From positions 1 through 50,074 of the forward strand of contig JAGOLX010000044.1 in NCBI GenBank assembly GCA_017993835.1: a DNA stretch of 50,074 bases, written 5' to 3'. Positions 373-30,800 of this stretch are shown one piece after another. Position numbers and translations under genes: made by a program. Origin of the DNA: Phycisphaerae bacterium (GTDB taxonomy: Bacteria > Planctomycetota > Phycisphaerae > Sedimentisphaerales > Anaerobacaceae). The notes beneath the pieces were generated by a model. It was not told the origin of the DNA and ran no database searches. It worked only from the letters and a program-made list of their open reading frames with translations. How positions within the stretch are numbered: position 1 is the first letter of the stretch; every line of letters begins with the position of its first letter.

Positions 373-1407
373 CTACGGTATCTCCCACTGGGGGGAATGG
401 GGTCCGCCCTTGTCCTGCGAGTGTCTGTAGCCTGCGATGCCGTGCAGATCGAACAGCAGTTGGAACGGACTGGTCAGGCAGTACGGTGGGCGCTTCTGCG
501 TGATCAGCACCGCGCCGAGGCGTCCGCAGGGCTGGCACACCATGTAGACCTGCTGCTGTCCCTGCGTGGCGAACGTGAATGCGAGCGCTGCGAAGTCGCT
601 GTCGGGCTCTTTCAGGATGTCCCATCCGAGGCCCTTGTTGTCTTGGAGGCGCTCTTCCCAAGCCTCGGTTCGGATCAGCTCGCCGCAGATGTATCCGCCG
701 TTCAGGAAGTGCGCCAGGAAGCCGGTCATATCCGTGATGGTGCACTGGACTCCTGATACGTTGGGGTCGTCGGGGCTCACCGCCGCAAACGACGTGGCAC
801 CGATCGGTTCGGAGACGTACTGTGCCAGCAGTTCGTCGAGCGTGCTGCCTGTCGCGTCCGACAGGATGTCCTCCAGCACGGCGTATCCGACGTCTGATGT
901 TGCATAGGCGGTGCCCGGGACGGACCGGATATTGAGTTTTCCGTTCTTCCAGACGGGCGTCTGCTGGTCCGAATGAGAACGAGGCAGGCCGCTGCTATGT
1001 TCCAGGAGATGGCGAAACGTTAGGCCCGTCTCGGAGAACTCGTCGGGCAGACAGTCTGCATACGTGGGACTGTACCGGCGGATGTCGTCGTCCAAACTGG
1101 CGATGACGCCCCGTTCCAGCAATTGCAGGCACAGAGTGGCCGTCACCGGATTGGCGCCTCGGTAGGAGACGACCGCGTTGACATCTGCCTGGTCGCCGTA
1201 CGAGCCCACGAAGATCGTGTTGGCCTCGTAGACGAGTCCGACGCTGATGAAGTCACACTCGGCCAACTCCGCCGCGACCTTGTCCTCGACCTGCTGGACC
1301 TGTTCCTGCGGCAATGACATGCCAAGGCCATCGCCGCCGTCGCCAAGGACCATTTCCGCACACAACGACATGCTGAGCAGAGCGATCATCTTCCCGAGAA
1401 GCCTCAT
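373..1407 (-). CDS. Secreted beta-lactamase-fold protein lacking the catalytic residues
   Basis: A 344-residue protein. The start is the ATG at 1407 because AGGAGG sits nine bases upstream; the longer frame to 1434 has no such site. Residues 1-22 form a signal peptide. The rest resembles the serine beta-lactamase/penicillin-binding family (PF00144): the block 'LTFRHLLEHSSGLP' and the 'LQLLERG...SLDDDI' helix are clear. The SxxK motif, however, aligns with RGAN (residues 83-86), the Tyr-x-Asn motif of the PGT...GY segment reads TSD, and the third HxG motif is absent. I therefore call it a pseudo-enzyme that may bind peptidoglycan or a ligand without hydrolysis. It is divergent from, and a paralogue of, the C-terminal half of the sigma-factor fusion at 1606; both share the same tail (QDKGGPHSPQWEIP versus QDRGGPHKPVWEIP). 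The fold call is strong; the role is inferred. Confidence 0.85.
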   Translation of the reverse strand: MRLLGKMIALLSMSLCAEMVLGDGGDGLGMSLPQEQVQQVEDKVAAELAECDFISVGLVYEANTIFVGSYGDQADVNAVVSYRGANPVTATLCLQLLERGVIASLDDDIRRYSPTYADCLPDEFSETGLTFRHLLEHSSGLPRSHSDQQTPVWKNGKLNIRSVPGTAYATSDVGYAVLEDILSDATGSTLDELLAQYVSEPIGATSFAAVSPDDPNVSGVQCTITDMTGFLAHFLNGGYICGELIRTEAWEERLQDNKGLGWDILKEPDSDFAALAFTFATQGQQQVYMVCQPCGRLGAVLITQKRPPYCLTSPFQLLFDLHGIAGYRHSQDKGGPHSPQWEIP

Positions 1408-1529
1408 GGTTGTACCTCCTGTTCTGCCAGTCAACTGGCGGGTCCACTGATTGCCGATATGATTCGCCTTCCTTGCACGGTGTTGTTCCGGTCGACCGCT
1501 TACTAAACGCCATGAGGTCGGACCGGTTA

Positions 1530-1540
1530 CGGAATTTCCG
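1530..1540. promoter_or_regulatory. CGGAA-T-TTCCG palindrome in the divergent intergenic region
   Basis: An 11-base interrupted palindrome (CGGAATTTCCG) lies between the two divergent pseudo-beta-lactamase genes, about 120 bases from one start and 65 from the other. It could be an operator for both genes. No repressor gene is adjacent, and a short palindrome can occur by chance in GC-rich DNA. Confidence 0.3.
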
Positions 1541-1565
1541 AGAGGGCTGTGTTCTGCGGTTTTTT

Positions 1566-1598
1566 GGAAACCTTTCAGCGTCGATGTCGTTGTATACT
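1566..1598 (+). promoter_or_regulatory. Candidate ECF-type promoter of the sigma-factor fusion gene
   Basis: GGAAACC (1566-1572) followed after 15 bases by CGTTGTA (1588-1594) fits the general ECF promoter layout (GGAAC-like -35, CGT-like -10). A TATACT hexamer at 1593-1598 is an alternative sigma-70 -10 element but has no good -35 at 16-18 bases. Either way transcription would start just before the ATG at 1606, giving a very short or absent leader. An ECF promoter here would imply autoregulation by the encoded sigma factor, which is an inference. Confidence 0.4.
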
Positions 1599-1605
1599 CG
1601 ATTGC

Positions 1606-3360
1606 ATGGGAAACGACATGGACCGGAAACTACTGGAAACCGTCCAACGGGCTCAGAAGGGCGATCTGGAGTGTGTGGCCCGCGTTACGGAGATGGCCTC
1701 AGAGAGGGTCATCAGGTACCTCTACAGGATCAGCCTGGACCACCACGCGGCCGAGGACCTCTGCCAGGAAACCATGATACGTTTGCTCGAGTACCTACCG
1801 AAGATCGTAATCAGGGACGAAGGTGCGTTCTGGGCCTGGCTGTATCGAACGGCCTTCAGTCGGCTCCAGCAACATCACAGGGACCAGCTCCGGCGCCGTA
1901 GACATTGCGACATGCGATCCGATCCCAGTCTGACCGCCGCGACGGCTACGGACGATGAGACGCCTTTCGAGCAGGTCGCGCGCAGCGAGTTGGCCCGTGC
2001 TGTGTGGAAGGCCATCGGCGTTCTGAAGCTGCATCACCGTCAGATCCTGACCCTCCGCTGCCTGGAGTCGCTTTCCTATGCGCAGATTGCCACCATTACG
2101 GGCGGTACGCAGCTCCAGGCGAAAGTCCGTTTCTTCCGGGCCAGGCAATCCCTCCGGCGACAGTTGCTCCGGCAGGGCCTTGCCAAGGACCACCTGTTGC
2201 CCGCGCTGGGTGTCTTCGCGGCCGTCACGGCGGGCTCGGGGAAACGAGCTGCAGGTGTCGCGAGCGCCTCGCTCGACGTTGGCGTGGGTGTTGCGGTGAT
2301 TGGCATGGCCGCCACCAAGATGGGGGCCGCCGTGCTCACTGCCGCGACGGTGGGAGCCCTGGCGGTCGGTTCTGTGGTCTCATCCGGAGCCGCGGACTCG
2401 GTTGTGTCCACGAGTCGGACGGGCTTGTCCAGATACACAATCGATCGCATCGAAAAGCGAATCGAAGCCGATGCCCGACGCTTCAACTTCATCAGCGCCG
2501 GGTTCATCTATGACGCCAACGTGGCGATGACGACCTCACATGGTACGCGGGCCGACCTCGACAAAGTGCTTCCTTTGCGAGGCCCCAACCCGATCACCTC
2601 CACCCTGTGCCTGCAACTGTTGGAGGGGAGGACGATCGCGGACCTGGACGATCCGATCGCCCAATACAGCCGACGATTCGCGAATTGCATGCCCGTGCGC
2701 TATGCCGACACGCCGGTGACCTTCAGGCACCTGCTGGCCCATACCAGCGGCTTGCCCGACAGCTTGGGCGGCGGCCCTCTCGGCCGGGACGGCAAACTCC
2801 GCCTCGAATCCAAGCCGGGCGAGCGATACCGTCGCACTGAAGCCGGATATGTTGTTCTGGAGATGTTGCTCGAAGAGATCACGGGAAAGCGACTCGACGA
2901 ACTGATCCAGATCCGCATTGCGGCGCCGATCGAGGCCACGTCGTTCAGGGCACTGGCTCCGAACGACGCGACGGTCGCGGGGGTCGAGTGCACGATCACG
3001 GACTTGACGCGATTCCTGGGCCGGCTGCTTCAGGGCAAGTATGTGTCGGGCGGGCTGCTCCGCGTCCAGGTGTGCAGTCCGCAGGATTCGGACTCCCACG
3101 GGTTGGGCTATTCCTTGATCGCAAGCGCCCGGGATGGCCTGAGTCTGGTCTGGGATCACGGTACGTGGGGTCTATACGACTATCATTGCGCGTTTCAGCC
3201 ATGTGGGCGTCTTGGCCTTGTGGTGGTGGCTCAGAGGAAGGCTCTGGACCAGTTTCCCGGCGATTATCTTCAGACGCTGCTTGATCTGCTCGCGATCCTG
3301 GGCGAGCAGCATATGCAGGATAGAGGCGGTCCGCACAAGCCGGTTTGGGAGATCCCGTGA
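1606..3360 (+). CDS. ECF sigma factor fused via a membrane segment to a pseudo-beta-lactamase domain
   Basis: A 584-residue fusion if started at ATG 1606; ATG 1618 is nearly equivalent and the GTG at 1549 lies upstream of the likely promoter. Residues about 28-99 are sigma-70 region 2 (HHAAEDLCQETMIRLLEYL, then FWAWLYRTAF). Residues about 126-190 are region 4 (LHHRQILTLRCLESLSYAQI and a helix-turn-helix). Residues about 226-262 are a Gly/Ala/Val-rich hydrophobic stretch that I read as one transmembrane helix. Residues about 280-545 match the PF00144 fold and are paralogous to the divergent secreted protein at 373-1407. As there, SxxK is replaced by RGPN (325-328) and Tyr-x-Asn by RTE; a HGTWG third motif survives. 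The likely topology is sigma domain in the cytoplasm and sensor domain outside. ECF factors with C-terminal extensions are known in planctomycetes; I do not know this combination as a described type. No anti-sigma factor is adjacent, so the extracytoplasmic half may itself control the sigma domain. Confidence 0.88.
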   Translation: MGNDMDRKLLETVQRAQKGDLECVARVTEMASERVIRYLYRISLDHHAAEDLCQETMIRLLEYLPKIVIRDEGAFWAWLYRTAFSRLQQHHRDQLRRRRHCDMRSDPSLTAATATDDETPFEQVARSELARAVWKAIGVLKLHHRQILTLRCLESLSYAQIATITGGTQLQAKVRFFRARQSLRRQLLRQGLAKDHLLPALGVFAAVTAGSGKRAAGVASASLDVGVGVAVIGMAATKMGAAVLTAATVGALAVGSVVSSGAADSVVSTSRTGLSRYTIDRIEKRIEADARRFNFISAGFIYDANVAMTTSHGTRADLDKVLPLRGPNPITSTLCLQLLEGRTIADLDDPIAQYSRRFANCMPVRYADTPVTFRHLLAHTSGLPDSLGGGPLGRDGKLRLESKPGERYRRTEAGYVVLEMLLEEITGKRLDELIQIRIAAPIEATSFRALAPNDATVAGVECTITDLTRFLGRLLQGKYVSGGLLRVQVCSPQDSDSHGLGYSLIASARDGLSLVWDHGTWGLYDYHCAFQPCGRLGLVVVAQRKALDQFPGDYLQTLLDLLAILGEQHMQDRGGPHKPVWEIP

Positions 3361-16511: not shown

Positions 16512-17135
16512 AGCGTCACCTCCAGCGTGCCGTGATGACTACAACTCGTTTGTTGAGAATCGGTGTGCCTGGGTCTCGACGCAGGCACGGGAGCCATCTT
16601 GTGGGAATCTGCAAGAGCCAAGATGTGCTCGATTGCTGCCGACTTGCCGGGCGGACGACAGACGTATGCCGTGGTTCCACCCGCTCCCTTCCTGGATTTG
16701 AGCATCCTTGCCTGCCCTCCAGTCGAAAGCCTACCCATCGGACTCTCTGCATCATATGCCATTGTCCCAGCAGCACTTGGGACTGTCAACAGTTTTTTTC
16801 GCGTGCCCTTGCGGCGGAGGCGACGTCGGGGTATCCTTTCGCCCGCAGCAGGGTCGGAATATCGATTTTTGTGTAACAAACCAGGATCTCAGAGCGTCTG
16901 ACTATATAAGCTGAGGGGACTCGTCGTCCGGTCTCGTCCCGACGAAGCGCTTGGGGACTGTGATGATGCACCGGGCGTCTCGGCTCGACCTTGAGGCGGC
17001 CGCGGTTCACAGCGGCGCTTCATTGCCGGCCAGGCGCTGGGCAGATGCCTCGGCAACTGTCAGGGTGTGTGGAACGTAAGGAATTGTCTTATATGGACTT
17101 GCAGGCTTGCCGGCTTGTCCGTTCGAGGTTATGGA
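16512..17135. other. Intergenic region upstream of the secretion operon, no gene recognised
   Basis: About 620 bases between divergent genes. Frames here are short, low in conserved character and conflict with each other. A TATATAA stretch at 16903-16909 and a TTATAT hexamer at 17089-17094 are the only AT-rich promoter-like spots, and neither has a good -35. The promoter of the operon beginning at 17136 is presumably here. Seen: no tRNA-like fold and no known riboswitch motif. Confidence 0.5.
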
Positions 17136-18866
17136 ATGAGGATGGACTCAAACGGCAGTGCGATTCAGAAGAAGAAGCTGGGCGAATTGCTCTGCGAGCG
17201 AGCCTATCTCGATGAGGCCGATCTGGGCGTCGCCCTGGCTGAGCAGAAGGTCAAGCACCGCCAGCTCGGCCAGATCCTCCTGGAGTTGGGCTACGTAACG
17301 CAGGCTCAGTTGAACGAAGCCCTGGCGATCCAGGCAGGGATCGAGCGGATCGACCTGTCGACGCTGTCCATCACAGGCGAGATCATCGGCCTCGTGCCTG
17401 CGGAGCTGGTCAGCAAGTACAACGTCCTTCCCCTGTGGCGCCAGAACGGTCGTCTGGCCGTGGCCATGGCGGACCCTCTCCAACTGCAGGTCACAGAGGA
17501 TCTGCGGCTGGTGACGGGCTGCCTGATTCAGCGATTCTATGCCGATCCCGCCCAGCTCGAGCACGCGGTGCTGAAGTTCTACGGCAGCAACGTCGCGCGA
17601 ATGTTGGACAATCTGACGCCGGCGGAGCAACGGATGGATGAGGATTCCGCCAACGGGGATTTCTCGCCCGCCAGACTGCACGAGCTGGCTCGTGAACCTT
17701 CTCTGGTCAACCTGGTGAATCTGATTATCTACGAGGCGATCGAGTCTCGCGCCAGCGACATCCACATCGAGCCGTTCGACCGGGAGGTGAAGATCAAGTA
17801 CCGGATCGACGGCCTGTTGGTCGAGAAGACGCCCTCTTCCAAGCGACTGCACGCCGCCATCATCTCTCGCATCAAGATCATGGCGAACATGAACATCGCC
17901 GAGCGATTCGTCCCCCAGGACGGGCACATCGAGTTCGTGGGCAAGAAGGGCAAGATCGACATCCGTGTCTCGACGGTGCCCACCGTGTTTGGCGAGGCCG
18001 TCGAGCTGCGCCTCCTGGATCGGTCTGCCTCGCTGATCAGTCTGCACGATCTGGGCATGAGCGACGCGACCCTCGATGGTTTCTGCAGATGCCTCAAGAA
18101 GACGCATGGGATCGTTCTGGTCACCGGGCCGACGGGATCGGGCAAGACGACCACCCTCTATGCGGCGTTGAACAAGATCTACTCGCCCACAGTCAAGATG
18201 ATCACGATCGAGGATCCTGTCGAGTATCAGCTCGAAGGGATCAACCAGATGCCGGTGAACGCCAAGAGGGGACTGACGTTCGCCACGGGTCTTCGCCACA
18301 TCCTCCGGCACGATCCGGACGTCATCATGGTGGGCGAAATCCGCGACCGGGAAACGGCCGACATCGCCATCCGGGCCGCGCTCACGGGCCACCTGGTCTT
18401 CTCGACCCTCCATACGAACGACGCCCCCGGCGCGGTCACTCGTCTGATCGACATGGGGATCGAGCCGTTCCTGCTGGCCAGTTCGCTGGAAGGCATCCTC
18501 GCCCAGCGGCTGGTTCGCAAGATCTGTCCGAAGTGCAAGGAGCCCTACGAGCCCGATGAGACCCTCCTGAAGAGCCTCAACGGGACTGTGAAGGCCACGC
18601 CCGGCGTGAAGTTCTATCATGGCGTCGGGTGCAACTACTGCAACCAGACGGGGATGACCGGACGAGTCGGGATTTTCGAGCTGCTTCGCATCACCGGGAG
18701 GATCCGCGAGTTGATCGCGTCGCGTCCCTCCGGCGACCAGATTATGAAAGAAGCTCCGGCCGACCACATCAGCATGGTGCATGACGGCATCGGCAAGGTC
18801 TTGCAGGGGGTCACGACGCCGGAAGAAGTCTTCCGTGTGGCCAAGACGATCGGCGAGGACGACTGA
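17136..18866 (+). CDS. gspE: GspE/PilB-type secretion ATPase
   Basis: A 576-residue hexameric ATPase driving pseudopilus assembly. ATG 17136 has GAGG eight bases upstream; ATG 17142 is an alternative. Residues 1-150 are the MshEN/GspE N-terminal domain (KLGELLCERAYLDEADLGVAL, LGQILLELGYVTQAQLNEAL). Then follow the N2 block LVNLIIYEAIESRASDIHIEP, Walker A GPTGSGKTT (about 331), the Asp box TIEDPVEYQ, Walker B GEIRDRETADIA and the His box LHTNDAPGAVTRL. The metal site is CPKC plus CNYC, typical of GspE/PilB. It opens a same-strand operon running to 31013. Confidence 0.95.
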   Translation: MRMDSNGSAIQKKKLGELLCERAYLDEADLGVALAEQKVKHRQLGQILLELGYVTQAQLNEALAIQAGIERIDLSTLSITGEIIGLVPAELVSKYNVLPLWRQNGRLAVAMADPLQLQVTEDLRLVTGCLIQRFYADPAQLEHAVLKFYGSNVARMLDNLTPAEQRMDEDSANGDFSPARLHELAREPSLVNLVNLIIYEAIESRASDIHIEPFDREVKIKYRIDGLLVEKTPSSKRLHAAIISRIKIMANMNIAERFVPQDGHIEFVGKKGKIDIRVSTVPTVFGEAVELRLLDRSASLISLHDLGMSDATLDGFCRCLKKTHGIVLVTGPTGSGKTTTLYAALNKIYSPTVKMITIEDPVEYQLEGINQMPVNAKRGLTFATGLRHILRHDPDVIMVGEIRDRETADIAIRAALTGHLVFSTLHTNDAPGAVTRLIDMGIEPFLLASSLEGILAQRLVRKICPKCKEPYEPDETLLKSLNGTVKATPGVKFYHGVGCNYCNQTGMTGRVGIFELLRITGRIRELIASRPSGDQIMKEAPADHISMVHDGIGKVLQGVTTPEEVFRVAKTIGEDD

Positions 18867-18935
18867 CCGGGGCCGATGGCATGGGGGCAGGCTGGGTGCC
18901 GTCCGATGAAACCCGGATGCCAAGCGGAGTAGACT

Positions 18936-20219
18936 TTGGGCCAGTTTTCCTACAAAGCAGTTGATCGGGGAGGAGGGCACGTCGCGGGCGTCGTGGATGC
19001 GGCGGACCGCCGCAGCGCCGTGGCCGCGCTGGCGCAACGCGGCCACTTCGTTATGGAACTGGTCGAGAAGGACCAGGGGCACAGTGCTCCCCCAAGGGCC
19101 GAGTCGTCGTCGAGCGGGGCCGAAGCGACCGGTTCGTCCGGCTTCATCGACTGCCTTCGCAACGGTCGCGTTTCCAGCCGGGACGTGCTGGCCATGACCT
19201 CGCAACTGAGCACCGCGGTTCGCGCGGGCCTTCCCCTGCTGAACTGCCTCGAACTTATGCGCAAGCAGCAGCGAAAGCCCGCGATGAGGCGGATGTTCGA
19301 GCACCTGACCAAGGCGGTCAGCGGAGGCAAGGCCCTCTCCGAGGCGCTGGCCGAACACAATGGCGTGTTCAATCCTCTCTATCTGTCGATGATCCGCGTG
19401 GGCGAGACGGGGGGAATTCTCGAACAAACCAGCACGCAACTGGCGATGATCCTGGCGCGCGAGGAGAAGATCAAGTCCAACATGAAGACCGCGGCGGCGT
19501 ATCCCATCTTCGTGCTGGGCCTGGGCATCGCTTCTGCGGTCCTGGTGGTCACCGTCATGTTGCCCAAGATCCTCGGGACGGTGGAGATGAGCGAGGCGAT
19601 GATGCCCTTGCCGACCCGCGTGCTCCTGGCGTCCAGCCACTCCCTGCGGGCCCTCTTCACCAGCGCCGGCGGGTGGGTCGTCCTGGCTGCTCTCGTGGGC
19701 GGTCTGCTGATGCTCCACAAATGGAAGAAGACCGCCGGGCGGGTGCAATGGGATGCCTTCCGCCTGAAGACCCCGGTCCTCGGGACGGTCCTGCAGACGA
19801 TTGCCGTCGGGCGATTCGCTCGCACGCTCGGCGCCCTGACCAAAGGCGGGGTCACGATCCTGGAATCCCTGGCGGTCGTTCGCGACACGCTGGGCAACGA
19901 GGTCCTGGCCCGCACAATCGACGAGGTGGCCGACAAGGTCAAGCGGGGCGAAGCGCTCGCGGAGCCCTTGGACCAGTCGGGCCATTTCCCTCCGCTGCTG
20001 GTGCAGATCGTCGCCATCGGTGAGCAGACGGGCAAGCTCGACGAGTTGCTCCTGAATGCGGCGGATACGTTCGACGCGGACGCCGACGCGGCGATCAATC
20101 GGTTCATGGCGATTTTCCCCGCCTTGTTGATCCTGGTCCTGGCCTTGATCATCGGCTTTGTTATTGCGGCGGCGCTGCTGCCCATTGTAATGATGTCGCT
20201 CAACGCCGGGATGGCGTGA
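18936..20219 (+). CDS. gspF: GspF/PilC-type inner-membrane platform protein
   Basis: A 427-residue protein with TTG start at 18936 preceded by GGAG. Two repeated T2SSF domains are visible (residues about 65-190, RVSSRDVLAMTSQLSTAVRA, and about 275-400, VGRFARTLGALTKGGVTILE), with transmembrane helices near 180-205, 235-258 and 380-415. It organises the assembly ATPase and the pseudopilus at the inner membrane. It directly follows gspE by 69 bases. Confidence 0.93.
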   Translation: MGQFSYKAVDRGGGHVAGVVDAADRRSAVAALAQRGHFVMELVEKDQGHSAPPRAESSSSGAEATGSSGFIDCLRNGRVSSRDVLAMTSQLSTAVRAGLPLLNCLELMRKQQRKPAMRRMFEHLTKAVSGGKALSEALAEHNGVFNPLYLSMIRVGETGGILEQTSTQLAMILAREEKIKSNMKTAAAYPIFVLGLGIASAVLVVTVMLPKILGTVEMSEAMMPLPTRVLLASSHSLRALFTSAGGWVVLAALVGGLLMLHKWKKTAGRVQWDAFRLKTPVLGTVLQTIAVGRFARTLGALTKGGVTILESLAVVRDTLGNEVLARTIDEVADKVKRGEALAEPLDQSGHFPPLLVQIVAIGEQTGKLDELLLNAADTFDADADAAINRFMAIFPALLILVLALIIGFVIAAALLPIVMMSLNAGMA

Positions 20220-20287
20220 TGAGGACGCCTGTCGAAAGGGGAACAAGAGAATCTGACGGTATCGTGGCTCATGCGAAAGGCTGTGGA

Positions 20288-20719
20288 ATGAGGCATATGA
20301 GACGACGAAGAAGGGGCTTCACGCTGGTCGAGCTGCTCGTGGTGGTGGGAATCATCGCGATGCTGGCGACCATGCTGGTGCCCCGCGTGTTCAAGGGAAT
20401 GGGCAAGGCGAAGACGGACATCGCGCGGGCGAAGATGGCGGTCATCGAGGACTCGCTGGCGCGGTTCCAGTACGACTGCGGCCGCCTGCCGGACGAGGCC
20501 GAGGGCGGGCTGGAATGCCTGCTGGCGCCTCCCGCGGAACTGGAGGACAAGTGGAACGGCCCGTATCTCAAGAAGAGCCAGCTCCTGGACCCCTGGGGCA
20601 ATGAGTACCAGTACCTCGCCGAGGGGCAGACGAACGTCGGGAGTTACGACATCATCAGTTATGGGGCCGACGGCGCCGAGGGCGGCGAGGGCGACAACGC
20701 GGATATCGTCAATGAATGA
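20288..20719 (+). CDS. gspG: GspG major pseudopilin
   Basis: A 143-residue pseudopilin. Start ATG 20288 gives MRHMRRRRRG-FTLVELLVVVGIIAML, cleaved after Gly10 with Glu at +5. The C-terminal GspG signatures are present: GRLPDEAEGGLECLL, WNGPYLKKSQLLDPWGNEYQY and SYGADGAEGGEGDNADI (calcium-binding loop). It builds the periplasmic pseudopilus. The stop overlaps the next start. Confidence 0.93.
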   Translation: MRHMRRRRRGFTLVELLVVVGIIAMLATMLVPRVFKGMGKAKTDIARAKMAVIEDSLARFQYDCGRLPDEAEGGLECLLAPPAELEDKWNGPYLKKSQLLDPWGNEYQYLAEGQTNVGSYDIISYGADGAEGGEGDNADIVNE

Positions 20720-21314
20720 CTCTGACGTCAACGTGCGGCGGCATCGGCCATCGTGTCCAGGGCATCGCGGGTTCACCCTCACCGAAGTCCTGGTGGTCGT
20801 GTCGATCATTGCCCTGATCGGCGGCGTGGGCGGCGGATACTACGCGGGCTCGCAGAAGAAGCTGCTCGTCGAGAAGGCGGCCCGGCAGTTCCTGTTGATG
20901 GCCCGGTACGCCCGGATCGTGGCCATCGAGCAGCAGCGTCCTTATGAGCTCGAGCTGGACCCGAACAACCGGGGTTTCTTTCTGGCAACCGTCCAGACGG
21001 ATCCTCAGACCGGCGAGTCGCTAAAGGTCCCCGTCCGGGATTACTTCTGCAAGCCGGTCGAATTCGAGGGGGACGTGAAGTTCGAGGACGTGCGATGGGA
21101 CGTGTCCGGGGAGGCCTCGTCCGACAATGCGGGCTTGGACGAGGGAATCGTCTTTATGCCGAACGGTTCCGCGGAATCGGCGATCGTTCAGATCGGCGAC
21201 GGCAAGACCCACTACTCGATTGCGGTGATCGCCGCGACAGGCAAGGCGAGCCTCTACCCCGGCATCATGACGGATATCAAGACCGCAAGCATCGATCTGG
21301 ACGTGCAGGAATGA
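20712..21314 (+). CDS. GspH-like minor pseudopilin
   Basis: A 200-residue protein. ATG 20712 overlaps the gspG stop. The prepilin signal is HRG-FTLTEVLVVVSIIALIGG (cleavage after Gly20, Glu at +5). The body has the GspH pattern of a helix followed by a beta sheet (LMARYARIVAIEQQRPYELE, then strands). The position after gspG and before an I-like gene supports GspH. Confidence 0.8.
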   Translation: MNDSDVNVRRHRPSCPGHRGFTLTEVLVVVSIIALIGGVGGGYYAGSQKKLLVEKAARQFLLMARYARIVAIEQQRPYELELDPNNRGFFLATVQTDPQTGESLKVPVRDYFCKPVEFEGDVKFEDVRWDVSGEASSDNAGLDEGIVFMPNGSAESAIVQIGDGKTHYSIAVIAATGKASLYPGIMTDIKTASIDLDVQE

Positions 21315-21766
21315 GAAACACAGTGGTGCAGAATGCCTGGAGCGCGAAGCCTCGCGGCTTCAATCTGATCGAGACCCTGGCGGCCAGCATGATTCTGTCG
21401 GGGGCGGTGCTCTCGCTCGGCGCCATCGGCACGAACACCCTGACGAACACGCGTCTGCATCGACACTACGAGCAGGCCGCCTCGGTGATCGATCTGCAAC
21501 TGGGCGTTATCGACTTCGCGGGAATCGACGAGTTCATCGAGGCCGGCCAGATGGAAGGCGTGAACGACCAGTTCGAGCTCGACTACCACTGGGCGGTGGC
21601 GACCGAGTTCACCGGGACGGACAACCTCTATCTCGTGAAGATCACAGTGACCTGGCTCGAAGGGAAGCGGCCGTACAGTGTGACGGCCCAGACCATGCTC
21701 AACGGCGCTTCCCTTGCGTTGGAAACGCAGAGCGGGACCGGCGCGGAGGAATCGCAGAACCCATGA
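21311..21766 (+). CDS. GspI-like minor pseudopilin
   Basis: A 151-residue protein, ATG 21311 overlapping the previous stop (ATGA). The prepilin signal is PRG-FNLIETLAASMILSGAV, with Asn at +2 and Glu at +5. The short body with DYHWAVATEF and YLVKITVTWLEGKRPYSV strands fits GspI, which caps the pseudopilus with J and K. Confidence 0.75.
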   Translation: MRNTVVQNAWSAKPRGFNLIETLAASMILSGAVLSLGAIGTNTLTNTRLHRHYEQAASVIDLQLGVIDFAGIDEFIEAGQMEGVNDQFELDYHWAVATEFTGTDNLYLVKITVTWLEGKRPYSVTAQTMLNGASLALETQSGTGAEESQNP

Positions 21767-22551
21767 CCCCGACGCGGCACAACGGATTCACCCTGGCGGA
21801 GGTCCTGGTGGCCTCGACTCTCAGCAGCTTCATCGCGATCGTCGCGGTCGGCGCGCTGAATGCCGTTCTGCGGACGTCGCAGACGGTCAACCAAGCCAGC
21901 GAGGTGAACGGCGAGGTCCGGTTCGCCGCCCGCATGTTGGCAAGGGACCTGGCCAACCTGTACCGGGATCCGAATCCGGAGAGCGTCAAGCTGGTGGGGG
22001 CTTCGCAGGGCTCGGACACGACGGGCCCGCCGTTCTTGACCTTTTACACGGTGGGACGGGCCCCGGCGCGGGCCGATCAGCCGGAGGGCGACGTCTATGA
22101 AGTCGAGTACTTCCTGGGAGGCAGCCGGGAGCTTGACGCCGAGGGCGGGTCCGACGAGCCGACGATTCTGTTCCGGCGGCTGTGGCCCAACCCGGACAAG
22201 GAGCGCGAGCCCGGCGGGATCTTGACGCCCGTCGCGGAGGGCATCGCGGTCTTCTACATTCGCTTCTCCGACGGCCAGGAATGGACGAACCAATGGACCG
22301 AGGAGATGCGAATCCTGCCCAAGCTGGTCGAGGTGACCCTGGGCACCGCGACGCCCGAGAAGGGCGATCCCGTCCTGGAGACATTCATGATTACGTTCCC
22401 TCGGATGGCCGAGGTCTCCGCAGGGCAGGCGCAGGAGGGTGAATCATCCGAAGGTCGGGAAGGCCGGCAGGAATCGACCTCGGGACCTTCGGACGAGTCC
22501 GGCAACGAGAACGCCCGCCCGACGGGCAACCAGGGACGGCGGGGGCGATAG
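21763..22551 (+). CDS. GspJ-like minor pseudopilin
   Basis: A 262-residue protein, ATG 21763 overlapping the previous stop. The prepilin signal is HNG-FTLAEVLVASTLSSFIA. The body contains FAARMLARDLANLYRD and VAEGIAVFYIRFSDGQEW, typical of GspJ. The C-terminal 45 residues are Ser/Glu/Gly/Arg-rich and probably disordered, an extension beyond normal GspJ. Confidence 0.8.
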   Translation: MTPTRHNGFTLAEVLVASTLSSFIAIVAVGALNAVLRTSQTVNQASEVNGEVRFAARMLARDLANLYRDPNPESVKLVGASQGSDTTGPPFLTFYTVGRAPARADQPEGDVYEVEYFLGGSRELDAEGGSDEPTILFRRLWPNPDKEREPGGILTPVAEGIAVFYIRFSDGQEWTNQWTEEMRILPKLVEVTLGTATPEKGDPVLETFMITFPRMAEVSAGQAQEGESSEGREGRQESTSGPSDESGNENARPTGNQGRRGR

Positions 22552-22553
22552 GC

Positions 22554-23891
22554 ATGAGAACGTACAAGGATAGCGCGAAGAGTGTCGGGGTGTCGCAGGG
22601 GAAACCTGCGAAGTCCAGGCCGGGCCTCGTCCTGGTCGCCGTGCTCTGGATGGTGGCCGTCATGATGGCCGTCGTCGCCGTGGTCGGCCGGACCGGCCGG
22701 CTGAATATGAAGATGTCCATGTCTGCCACGGACGAGGTCCGCTGCAAGTGGGCGTGCCGGGCGGGCATCGAGAACGCGATCGCGATTCTCAATGAGGATC
22801 TCAAAGACAGCGACTGTCTGTCGGATCTCTGGAGCGACAACGACGAGGATTTCAACGATGTGGCGCTCGAGCGGTGCCGGTACAGCGTGCGGGTGATCGA
22901 CGAGGCGAGCAGGCTGAACATCAACACCGCAACGAAGGACCAGCTCATGGCCTTGCCCTACATGGAGGCGGAGGTCGCCAACGCAATTCTGGACTGGCGG
23001 GACAATGACGACAATCCGCAGGCGGAAGGCGCCGAGGCGGGCTACTACGAGAACCTGAGCATCCCGTACAGGATTCGCAACGGGCCGTTCAAGACGGTGC
23101 GCGAGCTGCTCGCGGTCAAGGGGGTGACGCGAGAACTGTTGTATGGCGAAGACACGAACCTCAACGGCCTGCTCGACTCGAACGAACGGGACGGGGACCT
23201 GAGCCCGCCGTCCGACAACGGCGATCAGCAGCTCGACCAGGGCTGGATCGCCTATCTGACTTGCTACTCCTACGAGCGGAACGTGGATGCGGACGGCAGC
23301 AAGCGGGTCAACATCAACCAGGCGAATCAGCAGCAGCTTCAGGACGGGCTGGGCATCAGAGCCCCCCAGGCGAAATGGATCGTAGACAATCGCGGGCAGG
23401 GATACAAGAGCATTGGAGATCTGCTCAACGACAACAGCCCGGAGACCTCCTCGGGGAGTCCCAGCGGCAATCAGGACCAGGCGGAGCCGCTCGATAAAGA
23501 GACTTTCAGGCAGATCGCGGATCGCATTACGATCGCCGGCGAGGATCGTGTCCCCGGCAAGATCAACATCAATACGGCGTCGGTGGACGTGCTGGCCGCG
23601 TTCTTCGGCGGGGACGATCAGGCCCGTCAGACGGCACAGGCCATCGTCCTGAATCGGTCGAGCCTCCTGGAGGGGTTCACGAGTGTCGCCGATCTGCTGA
23701 GCCAGCAGTCCATGACGACCGAGCGGTTCAAGGCGGTCGCCGATCTGGCCACCGTCCGCTCGGATGTGTATACAATTCAGTGTCTTGCCGCAGCGGATGT
23801 CAGCGGGGCGCGCTTTCGGACGGAGTGCGTCGTGGATCGCAGCGCGTCGCCATGCACGATCCTGTATTGGTATCAGGGAGCTAACTACTGA
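22554..23891 (+). CDS. gspK: GspK pseudopilin tip protein
   Basis: A 445-residue protein. The prepilin-like signal is SRPG-LVLVAVLWMVAVMMAV, lacking Glu at +5 as is normal for GspK. Helix-hairpin-helix units recur (RLNINTATKDQLMALP, RVNINQANQQQLQDG, KININTASVDVLAAF), giving three copies rather than the usual one or two. The protein is longer than typical GspK (about 330). Its TGA overlaps the next ATG by one base. Confidence 0.85.
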   Translation: MRTYKDSAKSVGVSQGKPAKSRPGLVLVAVLWMVAVMMAVVAVVGRTGRLNMKMSMSATDEVRCKWACRAGIENAIAILNEDLKDSDCLSDLWSDNDEDFNDVALERCRYSVRVIDEASRLNINTATKDQLMALPYMEAEVANAILDWRDNDDNPQAEGAEAGYYENLSIPYRIRNGPFKTVRELLAVKGVTRELLYGEDTNLNGLLDSNERDGDLSPPSDNGDQQLDQGWIAYLTCYSYERNVDADGSKRVNINQANQQQLQDGLGIRAPQAKWIVDNRGQGYKSIGDLLNDNSPETSSGSPSGNQDQAEPLDKETFRQIADRITIAGEDRVPGKININTASVDVLAAFFGGDDQARQTAQAIVLNRSSLLEGFTSVADLLSQQSMTTERFKAVADLATVRSDVYTIQCLAAADVSGARFRTECVVDRSASPCTILYWYQGANY

Positions 23892-25354
23892 TGAGCAAAG
23901 GCGAAAGAATCCCGCATTCCGTGGTCGCGGCCGCGAGGGAAGACGGTCAATTCCGGGCGGTCGAAGTCCGCAGGCTGGATGGCCGTGTGGAGGTCGTGTG
24001 GATGCGCAGCGTGCCCGCGGAGAACCAGACGTGGAGCGGCTTCGCGGCCGAGTGCGGACTGGCGTCGCACGGAGACCGTCGGGACAGGACGGCGAAGAGA
24101 CACGCGCCGGCCGTGGTGGGACTCGACTCGACCGGCGTAGCGTTCTACCGGATCAACACGCCGCGAGTGGAAGAGCACGAGACCGCAGCGATCGTGAAGA
24201 TGCAGGCGGAATCGTTGCTCCCGCTGCCGGCGGACCAGATCGAGGTCGCATGGCGGACGTGCCCCTCGCACAACGGCAACATGGACATCACGATCGCCGC
24301 CGTGCGAAAGGAACACCTGGAGAAGTTCGTGGGCAGCGTGGAGGATTTCCGACCTCGCCACATCTTCCTGTCCTGTGAAGGGACGGCGAAAGCCTGGCAC
24401 GGGTTCTTCGCCGGACGGGAGCAAGAGGCGTTTCTCATCAGCTTGGGCACAGGGAATACGCAGGTATGCCTGGTTCAGAACGGCCTGGTCACGCGGGCGG
24501 GCGTGCTGGACGTGGGACTGTCCGATGTCGAGTTCTCCGGTCGCGGCGTGGAGCCTGGTCCGCCAACGGGAATCCTGGACCGTTTTGCCCGGGACGTACA
24601 GATCATGCTGTCGTCGCTCGGCTGGGATGAGACGAGTTCCCGACCGCTGCTCGTCCTCTCCGACGGGGGGCAGACTATCCAGGGGATTGTTGCGATGCTG
24701 GTCGCAGCCGGCTTGCCGGCCCAGGCGAGTGAGCCGCAGATCGAGCGTCTCAAGACGCCCGCGGGCTTCGGAAAACGCGAAGCGTATGAGTACCGCACGT
24801 CTCTGGGACTTGCGATGATTGCCCTGGAGAAGTCTTCGGCGGCCTTGGGACTCTTCGACCGCGTGCTGGAGGAACAGCGGCAGCAGAAGGCAGTCTCCGC
24901 CTGGCGATCCGTGGCCCTGGCGGGCGCCGCGGTTCTCATGATGTTGATTGCCTTGCTCGCGACGGTCTACGTCACGGACCTCGCCAGCGCCAGGCGGTGG
25001 GATGCGTTGGTGGAACAGCCCGAGTTCCAGGCGGCTCTGCAGCAGCAGTCGCTGGTCAAGACGGTGGCCCGGCACAGGCCGGATCTCCTCGAAATGCTGA
25101 CCGAGATCAACGCGGGCCAGAACGACGGGATCGTGCTGGACGGGCTGCTTTTCAAGAAAGGCTCCACGGTCACGCTCACCGGGCAGGCGGACAATATGGA
25201 GCAGATGTGGAAGTTTCAGGCGAATCTGCGAGCCCAGAAGGGGATCAAGGGCGCGGAGATTGCGAATGCCGCGCGGGATACCAAGACCAAGAAGGTCAAG
25301 TTCACGATTACGCTCGACTACAAGGAGTTCACGAAGAAGGGAGCTGCCCTGTAG
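23891..25354 (+). CDS. GspL-like PilM-PilN fusion
   Basis: A 487-residue protein. Residues 1-320 have the actin-like ATPase fold of PilM/GspL cytoplasmic domains (VVGLDSTGVAFYRI, SLGTGNTQVCLVQNG, LSDGGQ). Residues about 341-364 are a transmembrane helix (LAGAAVLMMLIALLATVYVT), followed by a PilN-like ferredoxin-fold periplasmic part (DGIVLDGLLFKKGSTVTLTG). The combination is what GspL is; it links the ATPase GspE to the periplasm. Confidence 0.8.
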   Translation: MSKGERIPHSVVAAAREDGQFRAVEVRRLDGRVEVVWMRSVPAENQTWSGFAAECGLASHGDRRDRTAKRHAPAVVGLDSTGVAFYRINTPRVEEHETAAIVKMQAESLLPLPADQIEVAWRTCPSHNGNMDITIAAVRKEHLEKFVGSVEDFRPRHIFLSCEGTAKAWHGFFAGREQEAFLISLGTGNTQVCLVQNGLVTRAGVLDVGLSDVEFSGRGVEPGPPTGILDRFARDVQIMLSSLGWDETSSRPLLVLSDGGQTIQGIVAMLVAAGLPAQASEPQIERLKTPAGFGKREAYEYRTSLGLAMIALEKSSAALGLFDRVLEEQRQQKAVSAWRSVALAGAAVLMMLIALLATVYVTDLASARRWDALVEQPEFQAALQQQSLVKTVARHRPDLLEMLTEINAGQNDGIVLDGLLFKKGSTVTLTGQADNMEQMWKFQANLRAQKGIKGAEIANAARDTKTKKVKFTITLDYKEFTKKGAAL

Positions 25355-25375
25355 CTCTTCGCAGGTGGAAGACCG

Positions 25376-25912
25376 ATGGCAAGAAGACTGAATACACGAG
25401 AGAAACGCGTGCTCCTGCTCGGAGCGGCGTCGGCGGTGCTCATCCTGATCTTCACGTATGGCTCGAAGGGATATGACTGCTGGACCGAGGCGCGGGCGAC
25501 CCTGTCCGCGGCCAAGCGGACGATCGGCGAGGTCGAGACGGACCGGAGCCGGCAGGCCGCCCTGGCGGCGCTGGTGCCTGTGTGCGAGGCCCCGCTGGTG
25601 GAGGACCAGCAGAAGTTCCTCTTCCGGGACCGACTGCACGAGCAACTGAAGAAGGCGGGCATCAACACGGAGCCCTTGCAGTTCCTGCCGGTGAGGAAGC
25701 CCAAGGGCGTCCCCTACAGGGTGCTGAAGATCAAGTGCAAGGGCAAGGGCAAGTTCGACCAGTTGCTCGACTTCCTGTCGCACCTGAACGAGAACCCCTA
25801 TCTGATCGGCGTGGAAGAGTTGCGGATCCAGTGCGATACGAAGGAGCCGCCGGAGAAGCGGAAAGACAAGGAGATCCAGATCGACCTGACGGTGAGCACG
25901 TTCGTCAAATGA
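25376..25912 (+). CDS. GspM/PilO-like membrane protein
   Basis: A 178-residue bitopic protein. The basic N-terminus and transmembrane helix (about 12-30, VLLLGAASAVLILIFTYG) precede a coiled-coil stretch (AKRTIGEVETDRSRQAAL) and a C-terminal ferredoxin-like domain (PYRVLKIKCKGKGKFDQLLD). This is the layout of GspM/PilO, the partner of GspL/PilN that precedes it. Confidence 0.75.
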   Translation: MARRLNTREKRVLLLGAASAVLILIFTYGSKGYDCWTEARATLSAAKRTIGEVETDRSRQAALAALVPVCEAPLVEDQQKFLFRDRLHEQLKKAGINTEPLQFLPVRKPKGVPYRVLKIKCKGKGKFDQLLDFLSHLNENPYLIGVEELRIQCDTKEPPEKRKDKEIQIDLTVSTFVK

Positions 25913-25949
25913 CATCGTGCGTCAGCGGAAAGAGAGGATTCATCGAGAC

Positions 25950-26690
25950 ATGCAGGTGAGAACAGGAGACATCCATCACGATGGGCGGGTCCCGCGGCTC
26001 CTGGCGGCAGCGGCGGTGCTGCTCGGCGTCTCCGCCTTCGCCAAGGTGGCGGCCTTCTACGTCGAGCGGGGACAGATCCAGGGTCTCGCTGGCCTGGCCC
26101 GGATCGGGGACGAGCCCAACGGCTTGGCGGGGTACCAGGACCAGGCGAAGAAAGCGGCCGAGGCGATCAAACAGAAGAATCTATTCATCAAGGAACCGCC
26201 CAAGGAGCACCCAATCAAACAGGTGGATGGGATTCTCGGCGACGAGGCGTTCATCGCAGGCCAATGGTACAAGGCCGGCGGCAAGGTAGGCGACGCCAAG
26301 ATCATCGAGATCGGGCCGACCTATGTGAAGGTCGAGTGGGAGGGCAAGGAGCAGAGCTTTGCCCCGATCGGCGCCGCGGTCTCTGCGCCCTCGGCACCGC
26401 CGCCGGCGCCGAAGGAGGTCAATAAGGAGCCGGCGCCCGAAGCGCCCAAGCCCGAGGCCAAGGCGGCGCCTGCGAAAGAGGCGACGCCGGAGCCTGTCGA
26501 ACCGGACGATCCCCTCGCGTGGCTCAATGTGAGAATGTCCGCTCGCTTGAAGGCCTTCCTGGTGGAGAAGTGGAATGGAGCTTCGGAAGAAGAAAAGGCC
26601 AGGGCCAAAGAGGAATGGAACCGGATGTCCGACAGTGACAAGCAGAGGGCGATCGATCAGATGGAAAGCCATGTAGATGAAATGCGATGA
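25950..26690 (+). CDS. GspC/PilP-like protein 1 with Pro/Ala/Glu-rich linker and C-terminal helices
   Basis: A 246-residue protein. ATG 25950 is chosen (GAGAGGA lies about 12 bases upstream); a GTG at 25917 is possible. A transmembrane helix (about 14-32) is followed by a GspC HR/PilP-type block: KKNLFI-x3-PKEHPIKQVDGILGDEAFI, GQWYKAGGKVGDAKIIEIGP, VKVEWEGKEQSF. This is the domain that contacts the secretin. Then come a 55-residue Pro/Ala/Lys/Glu linker and a helical tail (SEEEKARAKEEWNRMSDSDK). A paralogue follows immediately. Confidence 0.75.
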   Translation: MQVRTGDIHHDGRVPRLLAAAAVLLGVSAFAKVAAFYVERGQIQGLAGLARIGDEPNGLAGYQDQAKKAAEAIKQKNLFIKEPPKEHPIKQVDGILGDEAFIAGQWYKAGGKVGDAKIIEIGPTYVKVEWEGKEQSFAPIGAAVSAPSAPPPAPKEVNKEPAPEAPKPEAKAAPAKEATPEPVEPDDPLAWLNVRMSARLKAFLVEKWNGASEEEKARAKEEWNRMSDSDKQRAIDQMESHVDEMR

Positions 26691-27348
26691 TCGACATCAT
26701 GACCGGACCGAATCCTACACCCGCGGTCTGCTGGCCGTGGCGGTGCTTCTGGGTGCGTTGGTTCTTCTGAGGATCGCGGGGTTCGTGACAGCGTCCGCCC
26801 AAGCCCGCGCCATGGCTGCCACGGCAGACCCGAACGGGCGGGGTGTTGCAGAGGTGGGCAAGCTGCTGGCCGGCGCCCAGGCGTGTGCGGAGGAACTCAA
26901 GAAGAAGAATCTGTTCATCGTTGTTCCGCCGAAGCAGCATCCGGTCGGCGAGGTGCGCGGCATCCTGGGCGAAGAAGCCCTCATCAACGGCCAATGGTAC
27001 AAGGCCGGCGACAGCGTGGAAGACGCGAAGATCGTCGCGATTGAGCCGACCAAGGTTCGAGTTGCCTGGAACGGCCAGGAGACGGAGTTCCTGCCCATTG
27101 CCTCTGCCAGCGTCGAAGGAGGATCCGAGCGGTCGGGACCGCCCTCTCGCGGCGAGCGGTCGGGCCCGCGGCGAGGTCCGACATCGGTAATGACGGGCTC
27201 TCGCGGGGCTGCGCCGGGGCAGATGCAGGGCCGTCCCTCCCCTGAGGAGATCAACAAGATGCGGGAACGAATGCAGAACATGAGCCCGGAGGAACGAAGG
27301 CGGGCCATGCAAGAGATGCGTCAGAGATTTGAGGCGAGACCTCAGTAG
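26677..27348 (+). CDS. GspC/PilP-like protein 2
   Basis: A 223-residue paralogue of the previous protein, its start overlapping that gene by 14 bases. The transmembrane helix is LLAVAVLLGALVLLRIAGF. The matching block is KKKNLFI-x3-PKQHPVGEVRGILGEEAL, GQWYKAGDSVEDAKIVAIEP, VRVAWNGQETEF. The linker is Gly/Ser/Arg/Pro-rich instead of Pro/Ala/Glu-rich, and the helical tail contains NMSPEERRRAMQEMRQRF. Two C-like subunits in one operon suggest hetero-oligomers or alternative secretin contacts (inference). Confidence 0.75.
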   Translation: MKCDDRHHDRTESYTRGLLAVAVLLGALVLLRIAGFVTASAQARAMAATADPNGRGVAEVGKLLAGAQACAEELKKKNLFIVVPPKQHPVGEVRGILGEEALINGQWYKAGDSVEDAKIVAIEPTKVRVAWNGQETEFLPIASASVEGGSERSGPPSRGERSGPRRGPTSVMTGSRGAAPGQMQGRPSPEEINKMRERMQNMSPEERRRAMQEMRQRFEARPQ

Positions 27349-27374
27349 TCCCTGTTCAGGAAAGGTTTGTCTGA

Positions 27375-27827
27375 ATGAAGTCACCAAATGCCATCGCAAC
27401 CGTCATTTTGATCGTCGCGGCGCTTATCGCGGCGTATGCCATTGGTCTGCTGATTCGCCAAGCCAGGGTGGGAGATTCGTCCTCCCTTACCCCCGGTGCG
27501 GCAGAGGTCAATGAAACTCGCATCCGCGAGAGCACCGCGGCGCTGGACCACGCTCCAGGAACCGGGCAGTCACAGGATTCGCAGCAGGCCCGGGCGAAAC
27601 TCAAGCAGAAACGCACCGAAGACCTCCAGAAGATGGAGTCGGCGACGGAGGAACAGAAGGAGCAGTTCCGAGAGAGAATCCGGGACCGTTTCAGCGCGGA
27701 CCCGAACGCCAGGGCAGCCAAGAGACGCCCCGTGAGAGGCGCGGTGCCCGCGGCGACTCCGGCGACGCAGGACCCCAACGCGGGCTCCCAGGACGAGAAG
27801 GCCGGCTCGGATCCCAACGGCCGGTGA
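27375..27827 (+). CDS. Small anchored protein of the secretion operon
   Basis: A 150-residue protein with an N-terminal transmembrane helix (about 6-27, IATVILIVAALIAAYAIGLL). The periplasmic part contains a charged helical segment (SATEEQKEQFRERIRDRF) like the tails of the two preceding proteins, then a Pro/Ala/Asn-rich tail. There is no GspC-type block. It is not a recognised family; position suggests an accessory subunit of the secretion apparatus. Confidence 0.65.
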   Translation: MKSPNAIATVILIVAALIAAYAIGLLIRQARVGDSSSLTPGAAEVNETRIRESTAALDHAPGTGQSQDSQQARAKLKQKRTEDLQKMESATEEQKEQFRERIRDRFSADPNARAAKRRPVRGAVPAATPATQDPNAGSQDEKAGSDPNGR

Positions 27828-27878
27828 GAGTGGATTGCTGGATGAAACGCTAACACTGGATTGAAGTGAGGTGACACC

Positions 27879-30800
27879 TTGGAACGGTCAAAGATAGTTT
27901 TGTGGGTTCTGGTCCTTGTCGCGGCCGGTGTGATCATCTGGTGGGTGGGGTTCCGTCCGCCGGCGCCGGACCTGCCCCGCGTCGAACGGAAGGGGGGGGC
28001 CCTCGCGGGCGCCAGGGTGTCTGCGCCCAACGAGCCGAACTCGCCCGAGAGCGACACGGCGCCTGCGGATGCGAACCAGCCGGGGGACAAGGATCCGAAC
28101 CAGCCGAAGGTGCAGGCCGGTGCGCCGGAGCCCAACGCGCCTCCGAAGCCGGAAGCAGAGAAACCCTCGGAGGCGAAGCCCGCGAAGGCCGAAGTCCCGG
28201 AGGACCCGAACGATCCGCTGGAGGCGGTCAATCTCAAGGACGTCGAGATGAAGAACATCATCGAGAAGATCGCCCAGTGGACCGGCAAGGCGGTCATTCC
28301 CAGCGACGAGGCCATGAAGCAGAAGATCACGATCTATGCGCCGGACAAGCTGCCTCGGAGCAAGGCTCTGCTCAAGATCTACAGCGCCCTGCGAATGAAA
28401 GGCTTCACGCCGGAAATCGTGGACGACACGATCTTCCTCAAGCCGCTCAGCGAGGCCCGATTGGGAGTCCATCCGATCGTTCCCCCGGATCAGCCGCTGG
28501 CGGCCTTCGAGAACTCCGCTCAAATCGTGCAGAAGCTCTTCAAGCTGGCCAATTACCCTCCCGCCCAGATGGCGGAGATCGTCCGCCCGTTGATTGGCGA
28601 GTACGGGCACGTGGGCGCCGACGAGACGACCGGGACGCTGCTGGTGATCGACACGGTGGGGAACCTCATGCGGATCGAGAGCATCATCACGCAGTTCGAC
28701 GTCCCCGACGCCGGCAAGATCGCCACGGAGATCTTCGAGATTCACACTGGAGACCCGACGGAGATGGTCCAGGTGCTTCGTCTGCTCCTGGGTGGCACAG
28801 CAGACGGTCGCAGGGGCGGACAATTGCGGAGCAGCGGGACCTCCTCCCGACCGGCCAGTCAGTCATCCGGCGGCAGCGGCAAGGGCGCCACGTCCGTGGT
28901 CATCGGCGTGGGCGACATCCCCATCGTTCTGATCCCGGAGCCCAAGCGCAAGTGGATCATCGCCCGCGCGTCGCCGGAGACCATCAAGCAGATCGGCGAG
29001 TGGATCGCGAAGATGGACAAGGAACAGCCAATCGCGCCGGAGTACGAGACGGTTTCCATCGTCTACGCCAATGTGGATGAGGTCGCGCGCCGGATTCAGC
29101 AGTCTCTGGAGGACATGCCTGGCAGCGAGCTGCGTCCCAACGTGCTGGTCCAGCCGCTTTCGCAGACGCGGCAGATCATGATCTTCGGCCGGGCCGATCT
29201 GCGGCAGATGATCAAGAAGCTGATTGCCGAGGTCGACGTGATGCCCGGGCAGTTCCTGACGGAGGTCTTCGATCTCAAGCACGCCGACCCCGATCAGATC
29301 AAGACGAACATCGAGGGCTTGTATGAATCGCAGTCGGGCACCTCGTACAGCTACGGCTATCGCAGCTCGCGATACCGTGACATCCAGCCGAGCGAAACCG
29401 TGAAGGCCATCTCGTATCCGTCGATGGGACAGATCACGGTGATCGCGTCGGCGGAGAACATGGAGAAGATCCGCAAGCAGATTGCGGACTGGGACGTGCC
29501 CCTGGATGTGGACCAGGTCAAGCCGAGGATCATCGAACTGAAGAACTCCGATCCCGTCCAGATGGCGCAACTGCTGACGAAGCTGTTCTCCGAGGACTCG
29601 GAGGGCAGCAGCTCGCTGTTTCGCATCTTGTACTACGGCTATGACGAGATGGAGCAGAAGAAGAAGATCATCGGTCCGCTGTACGGGCAGTTGACCTTCG
29701 AGGAGGTCCCGGGGACCAAGAAGATCATCGTGATCAGCAAGATTCCCCAGGCGTATGAGGTGATCGAGCAGTTGATTATGGAACTGGACCGGCAGGAGAT
29801 GGCGGAGATCCCGCACGTCGTCCAGATCAAGTACGCCGACACCGAGGATCTCACGGAGCGGCTCAACGCCATGTTCAACGAGCAGGGGACGCCCGCGCCC
29901 ATTCGCCGGACGACCCGGGGCATTGGCGATTACTCTATGGACAGCGGCGACGAAGGGCAGAACCAGAACAGCCCTCGCAACAACCCCTCCAACAACAGCC
30001 GACAGAACAACGCGGATACCTACACGCCGCCCTGGTCTTCGGGAGGCGCGAGGCGGATGACGAATGAAGAGCCGATCAGCAACGTGATCGGACGGGTCCG
30101 GTTCATTCCGGACCCAAGGAGCAAGTCCATCCTGGTGCTGGCGCCCCCCGAGTTCCAGAAGAGCATCGAAGAGACGATTCGGCAGTTGGACGTGCCGGGC
30201 AAACAGGTCATGGTCAAGGCCGTGGTTGTCGAAGTGGACCACCAGGATATGACCTCCCTGGGCGTGCAGTTGTCGTCGAATCCCGCGGACACCTTCTCGG
30301 TCGGCGAGAACGGCATGACCGCCCTGGGCGAGCTGACGTATCTTCAGGAGCGAGGCTCCGCCACGATCGAGGTGGGAACCAGCGTCACGGGTCTGCTGGA
30401 CCTCCTGGTGAAGAAGGTCAATGCCAAGATCCTCAACCAGCAGTCGCTGTGGACCGAGGACAACGAAGAGGCGAGCTTCTTCAAGGGCCAGAGGATCGCG
30501 TTCCAGACGAGTTCCACGACTTCGGAGACGGGGATCAGCCGGACGCAGAACTTCGACTATCAGGATGTCGGCATGACGCTCGCCGTGCGGCCCAGCATCA
30601 CGCCGGAGAAGAATGTCGATATGATGGTCACCGTGCTGCTGTCCGACCTGACGGGCGACTCGACCAATGGCCAGCCCAACAGGCGAGTCATGAACAGCAC
30701 GACAAACATGATCGTGCAGAACGGCCAGACCCTCATGCTGGGAGGCATTCTCTTCCAGACGGACAGCAAGATCGAGAGAAAGGTCCCACTCCTGGGCGAC

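Follow-up and report, generated by a model that had tools for sequence, protein, structure and literature searches.

Most ECF sigma factors rely on a separate anti-sigma factor. Activation by proteolysis has been shown for IutY of Pseudomonas putida (ECF243; PMC8999054) and proposed for ECF52 (SCO4117; PMC5826349). In Bacillus thuringiensis, PbpP, a separate beta-lactam-binding protein, acts through the anti-sigma factor RsiP on sigmaP, and in BlaR1 a transpeptidase-like sensor is covalently acylated by the antibiotic, with a cytoplasmic protease as output and BlaI as repressor (both PMC8092216). Within the planctomycetes, ECF sigma factors of Gemmataceae carry WD40 repeats (PMC8567305). Here we describe a divergent gene pair of a Phycisphaerae bacterium in which one gene (protein P0001) joins an ECF sigma factor, through a family-specific linker and transmembrane (TM) segment, to a PF00144 (class C beta-lactamase/DD-peptidase) domain devoid of the catalytic Ser, Lys and Tyr, and the other (P0002) encodes a secreted paralogue of that domain. 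Our literature searches found no report of a sigma-beta-lactamase fusion in planctomycetes, comparison with Jogler 2012 and Casas-Pastor 2021 being outside their scope, and no publication on the anchored ECF family to which P0001 is assigned below.

The pair sits at a contig edge, since the window analysed here (50,074 nucleotides) is an entire contig that starts 373 bases before P0002. Both frames are open over the extents given in Table 1, as originally predicted for this divergent arrangement. Pfam matches in P0001 are Sigma70_r2 (residues 34-96; 1e-10), Sigma70_r4_2 (131-183; 9.7e-07) and PF00144 (330-547; 5.7e-23), and P0002 combines a signal peptide with PF00144 (87-308; 1.7e-18), in keeping with the predicted secreted copy of the sensor; the two PF00144 scores of 82.1 and 67.3 bits compare with a curated cut-off of 27. 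Against TIGR02937, P0001 scores 68.8 bits (cut-off 42.9) and, with regions 2 and 4 only and an ECF fold, it is an ECF sigma factor.

Table 1. Features of the divergent gene pair, in window coordinates
Feature	Position	Strand	Basis
P0002, secreted PF00144-like protein, 344 aa from ATG 1407	373..1407	-	ORF call, Pfam
P0002 C-terminal tail HSQDKGGPHSPQWEIP	376..423	-	pair alignment, related-genome search
P0002 PF00144 domain	484..1149	-	Pfam
P0002 RGAN (R83-N86) at the SxxK place	1150..1161	-	alignments
P0002 predicted Sec signal peptide, residues 1-22, without a good lipobox	1342..1407	-	sequence, hydropathy peak at residue 3; cleavage site by inspection
Candidate anchored-sigma family promoter copy, 5' of P0002, AAATTCCGTAACC...ATGGCGTTTAGT	1502..1537	-	weak
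Candidate ECF-type promoter GGAAAC-N16-CGTTGT, 5' of P0001	1566..1593	+	sequence; alone not significant
P0001, ECF sigma-linker-TM-PF00144 fusion, 584 aa from ATG 1606	1606..3360	+	ORF call, Pfam
P0001 sigma-70 region 2, residues 34-96	1705..1893	+	Pfam; AlphaFold2 pLDDT over 90
P0001 sigma-70 region 4, residues 131-183	1996..2154	+	Pfam; AlphaFold2
P0001 conserved anchored-sigma family linker, residues 194-239, extra helix 194-210	2185..2322	+	alignment, AlphaFold2
P0001 transmembrane helix at about residues 240-259, preceded by cytoplasmic K238	2323..2382	+	hydropathy
P0001 RGPN (R325-N328) at the SxxK place	2578..2589	+	alignments
P0001 PF00144 domain	2593..3246	+	Pfam
P0001 C-terminal tail HMQDRGGPHKPVWEIP	3310..3357	+	pair alignment, related-genome search

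The outer domains of the two proteins share 42% identity over 314 residues and can be aligned to the final residue. We aligned their active sites with those of five further PF00144 proteins encoded in the genome and of a relative that belongs to the same family but to another genus (genome G015). RGPN of P0001 and RGAN of P0002 fall onto SxxK, and RTE and TSD, respectively, onto Y-x-[NS], so that both motifs expected of an active PF00144 enzyme are absent from both copies and the two losses originally predicted are upheld. At the third motif (H/K-x-G), P0001 retains HGT and P0002 has TFAT instead. By contrast with the pair, the G015 relative is intact (SVSK, YSS and HAG), and SxxK is present in all five paralogues. 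As judged from these sequences, P0001 and P0002 are members of PF00144 by fold profile and not as enzymes, and, since the copies disagree at the second and third active-site motifs, shared pocket chemistry is not indicated. Both carry four cysteines at aligned positions (335/93, 361/119, 462/222 and 533/294 in P0001/P0002), which are missing from the G015 relative in the alignment. The predicted common C-terminal tail is likewise confirmed: 16 residues (HxQDxGGPHxPxWEIP) run through the last residue of both proteins. Among 61 related genomes the tail occurs in no gene other than these two, and a general sorting or protease signal was therefore rejected as its explanation. The G015 relative itself (L027, G015:C140, 8777-9781, minus strand) is lipoprotein-like and adjoins two lipoproteins rich in TSYGS/THNG-type repeats, with no sigma factor nearby.

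Instead of the single hydrophobic helix that had been described, P0001 has two hydrophobic stretches (residues 218-236 and 240-258). One membrane helix is nonetheless favoured: hydropathy averaged over 56 family sequences peaks at 241-259, directly after a conserved basic (K/R) position 238, so that a single membrane crossing, leaving the C-terminus outside, is the likeliest topology, in agreement with the signal peptide of P0002. The TM helix and the extracytoplasmic placement of the PF00144 domain thus both stand as predictions. AlphaFold2, run with 56 sequences, gives a two-domain sigma factor, whose residues 1-105 and 121-205 mostly exceed a pLDDT of 90, and a further helix at 194-210, the linker/TM region being of low confidence. 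The best PDB matches of this sigma model are ECF factors, with target-normalised TM-scores of 0.84 to SigW bound by RsiW and 0.79 to CnrH bound by CnrY, and lower values, about 0.3-0.4, to RNA-polymerase-bound forms. The match of the model to anti-sigma-bound forms fits an inhibited resting state without proving it, because predictors favour compact forms. Structure prediction thus supplied a confident ECF fold for the sigma part but not for the outer domain, for which two sequences yielded a pLDDT of 44 and a model that we did not use.

The same genome encodes four further ECF factors that can be aligned with P0001 across region 4, the linker (ALxVFGKxTAxxxAAAA...LxVG) and the TM segment. A profile of the sigma-linker-TM part, built from these five rows, detects the family in 103 of the 159 genomes of the window's order (P0001 itself, being one of the rows, scores E 3e-111). 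Across a phylum sample of 294 genomes the family appears in only three, all from the window's order; beyond that order, no sampled genome passed the cut-off applied. Named members come from Sedimentisphaerales/Phycisphaerae MAGs, with one in a MAG labelled WOR-3. The great majority of distinct family proteins (92 of 101) carry an outer domain of about 360 residues that belongs to no Pfam family (WYYFPEGPxGPxMLR...). P0001 alone among the 101 carries PF00144 and, as in a minority of the family, is without the WYYFPEGP domain; several members consist of sigma and TM parts only, and L070 and L091 bear other C-terminal outer domains of about 180-190 residues, which represent further natural domain swaps. 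The outer domain is thus a swappable module, and P0001, by the alignment of its cytoplasmic half and TM segment, belongs to the anchored ECF family, its own outer domain being a domain swap. That planctomycete ECF factors can carry C-terminal domains, as stated in the original prediction, accords with this order-wide family as well as with the WD40 types (PMC8567305). Loci of the WYYFPEGP type (L004, L005, L006, L028-L057 and L094-L173) occur in several copies per genome. A short class (L003, which is C101 of the window's own genome, L061, L069, L072 and L077) has sigma and one or two hydrophobic segments but lacks an outer domain, and the sensor of these members may come from a partner protein.

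Genes of the family are preceded by a conserved element, AAAANNCGTTAC and GTGGCACTTA separated by 15-17 nt, mostly about 35-70 nt ahead of the start codon and seen upstream of L004, L037-L056, L118, L150 and others. We modelled it on 60 non-redundant upstreams, training on one half and testing on the other, both ways; 57 of the 60 held-out upstreams scored above 95% of shuffles, a figure somewhat inflated by related sequences. This element probably serves the family as its own promoter, under autoregulation. No site of the kind precedes the P0001 gene, the best score there being below zero. A partial site at 1537-1502 faces P0002; it comes fifth among the sites of the whole window, both strands taken together (p about 0.013 on the intergenic strand), and hints at transcription of the secreted gene by an anchored sigma factor, which may be P0001. 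We rejected a generic family-wide promoter of the form GGAA(N)C-N14-18-CGT because such elements are not above chance in the family; the GGAAAC-N16-CGTTGT element before P0001 is by itself not significant.

Going beyond these observations, we hold with moderate confidence that P0001 is a single-chain receptor-sigma factor with a pseudoenzyme ectodomain, released by proteolysis or conformational change, with the secreted paralogue providing feedback or tuning. In the resting state the membrane would retain the sigma part in inhibited form. The pseudoenzyme outer domain would bind a ligand or a protein and thereby trigger release, most likely through regulated intramembrane proteolysis, for which IutY is the precedent, or through a conformational change. 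The freed sigma factor would transcribe a regulon that may include P0002, which would compete for the ligand or bind the receptor and in this way tune the system or feed back on it negatively. One inactivation of the enzyme domain, followed by its duplication, would have given rise to the two copies, both being kept by purifying selection. That P0002 binds the same ligand, or the receptor itself, is plausible because fold, cysteines and tail are shared. Because the pocket motifs differ, direct contact between proteins, by way of a conserved surface or the tail, is no less likely than a common small ligand. Site-2 protease genes (PF02163) are present in the genome; a control shows them to be universal, so their presence proves little. 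The narrower version of this scheme, in which the pseudo-beta-lactamase is a non-covalent sensor of a transmembrane receptor-sigma factor controlled by a self-induced secreted decoy, the whole having arisen by a single domain swap and a single duplication, is possible but somewhat doubtful.

The sigma factor might alternatively be regulated while it stays membrane-bound, by a conformational change passed through the TM segment and linker with no proteolysis. Strong conservation of linker residues 194-239 across the family, as expected of a transmission or inhibitory element, and the existence of members of the C101 type, with sigma and TM but no outer domain, speak for this possibility. It nevertheless appears unlikely, as a sigma factor must engage a moving RNA polymerase and as IutY, which has a similar layout and has been studied experimentally, is freed by proteolysis (PMC8999054).

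Fusion, divergent pair and tail are known from a single genome among all those searched. Scanning genome contigs with the domain pair gave 20 pattern matches with no relative among them; class and phylum searches with the pair, in which the best first-look candidates per genome were scored so that distant members could escape, matched the window alone; and of the viral-contig scans, one was empty and one returned a single distant PF00144. The genes after P0001 encode an ABC ATPase, a DUF2400-like protein and a transglutaminase-like protein, and three sister genomes, one of them with CheD too, keep this order without the pair. The pair thus stands at a variable place, and the neighbours do not obviously form part of its pathway. 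Since sisters without the pair conserve the neighbourhood, we rejected a functional connection with the downstream ABC gene. In one sister genome (locus L082, G005:C279, about 2900-3300), the position that the sigma pair occupies in the window, immediately ahead of the ABC gene, is taken by a reading frame similar to the beginning of an IS30-type transposase; the site may often receive insertions. Elsewhere in the window, positions 17067-31010 (+) hold type II secretion genes (GspE, GspF, GspK and GspD-like).

Confinement to one genome, the variable position upstream of a conserved block and a sigma gene without the family promoter would all suit a recent accident, in which a captured enzyme domain was fused and duplicated without functional coupling to the sigma factor, leaving a passive, drifting outer domain. 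The coding sequences argue otherwise and make such an accident unlikely. Over 313 codons (Nei-Gojobori), P0001 and P0002 differ by a dN of 0.58 and a dS of 1.63, the latter near saturation, for a ratio of about 0.36, and divergence is highest at third codon positions (0.60, against 0.45 and 0.35), which indicates purifying selection on both copies as proteins; neither frame has been interrupted, and the two proteins, 42% identical overall, have kept the RGxN segment, the four cysteines and the tail. The original prediction had read the substituted motif shared by the paralogues as conserved non-catalytic function and not decay. The argument against decay finds support in selection after the duplication, but a conserved function is not supported: a motif common to two paralogues is one evolutionary event, not two; neither the fusion nor the divergent arrangement recurs in any other genome searched; and intact SxxK does exist at that position, in the G015 relative and the five paralogues. 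The last two outcomes are among those that the original prediction had itself named as contrary to it. Comparison of the copies indicates that SxxK was lost once, before a single duplication, and is shared in its substituted form by descent. The pair is real and unusual but confined to a single genome, and the wider anchored family is the more general finding. That the domains are still enzymes with an altered mechanism, using for example a conserved Cys or Thr nucleophile and signalling through the reaction or its product, is highly improbable: the structural motifs TFRHLLxHxSGLP, PG and GLG are retained and one of the four new shared cysteines, C335/C93, lies on the former SxxK helix, but conservation between the copies does not extend to the second and third motifs, and we know of no PF00144 enzyme with such an altered site.

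The preferred reading, a single-chain receptor-sigma factor with a pseudoenzyme ectodomain, belongs to an order-wide family in which the sigma factor itself bears a membrane anchor and an exchangeable outer domain. The natural swap to a recognisable dead-enzyme fold offers a handle on the role of the outer domain and on the activation of anchored sigma factors, and the secreted paralogue is an unusual element of such a system. Compared with its own family, P0001 is alike in sigma part, linker and TM segment, with PF00144 replacing the WYYFPEGP domain and the family promoter missing. The Gemmataceae proteins are likewise planctomycete ECF factors with large C-terminal domains, made of WD40 repeats instead of PF00144. 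With BlaR1/MecR1 it shares an extracytoplasmic PBP-like sensor on a signalling protein; the parallel drawn in the original prediction extends to an extracytoplasmic fold of the penicillin-recognising type but is otherwise loose, as the BlaR1 sensor is covalently acylated, whereas P0001, a PF00144 protein with a sigma output, has by Pfam and alignment neither an acylatable Ser nor a cytoplasmic metalloprotease domain. As in PbpP-RsiP-sigmaP, a penicillin-binding-type domain is linked with an ECF sigma factor, but here it is fused to it and lacks the catalytic Ser. IutY and ECF52 differ by their anti-sigma or zinc-finger part and by outer domains that are unrelated; between region 4 and the TM segment of P0001 no such Pfam match was found, and a functional equivalent could lie in the linker. 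Like them, however, P0001 is predicted to unite a cytoplasmic sigma factor, a TM segment and an extracytoplasmic C-terminal part on one chain.
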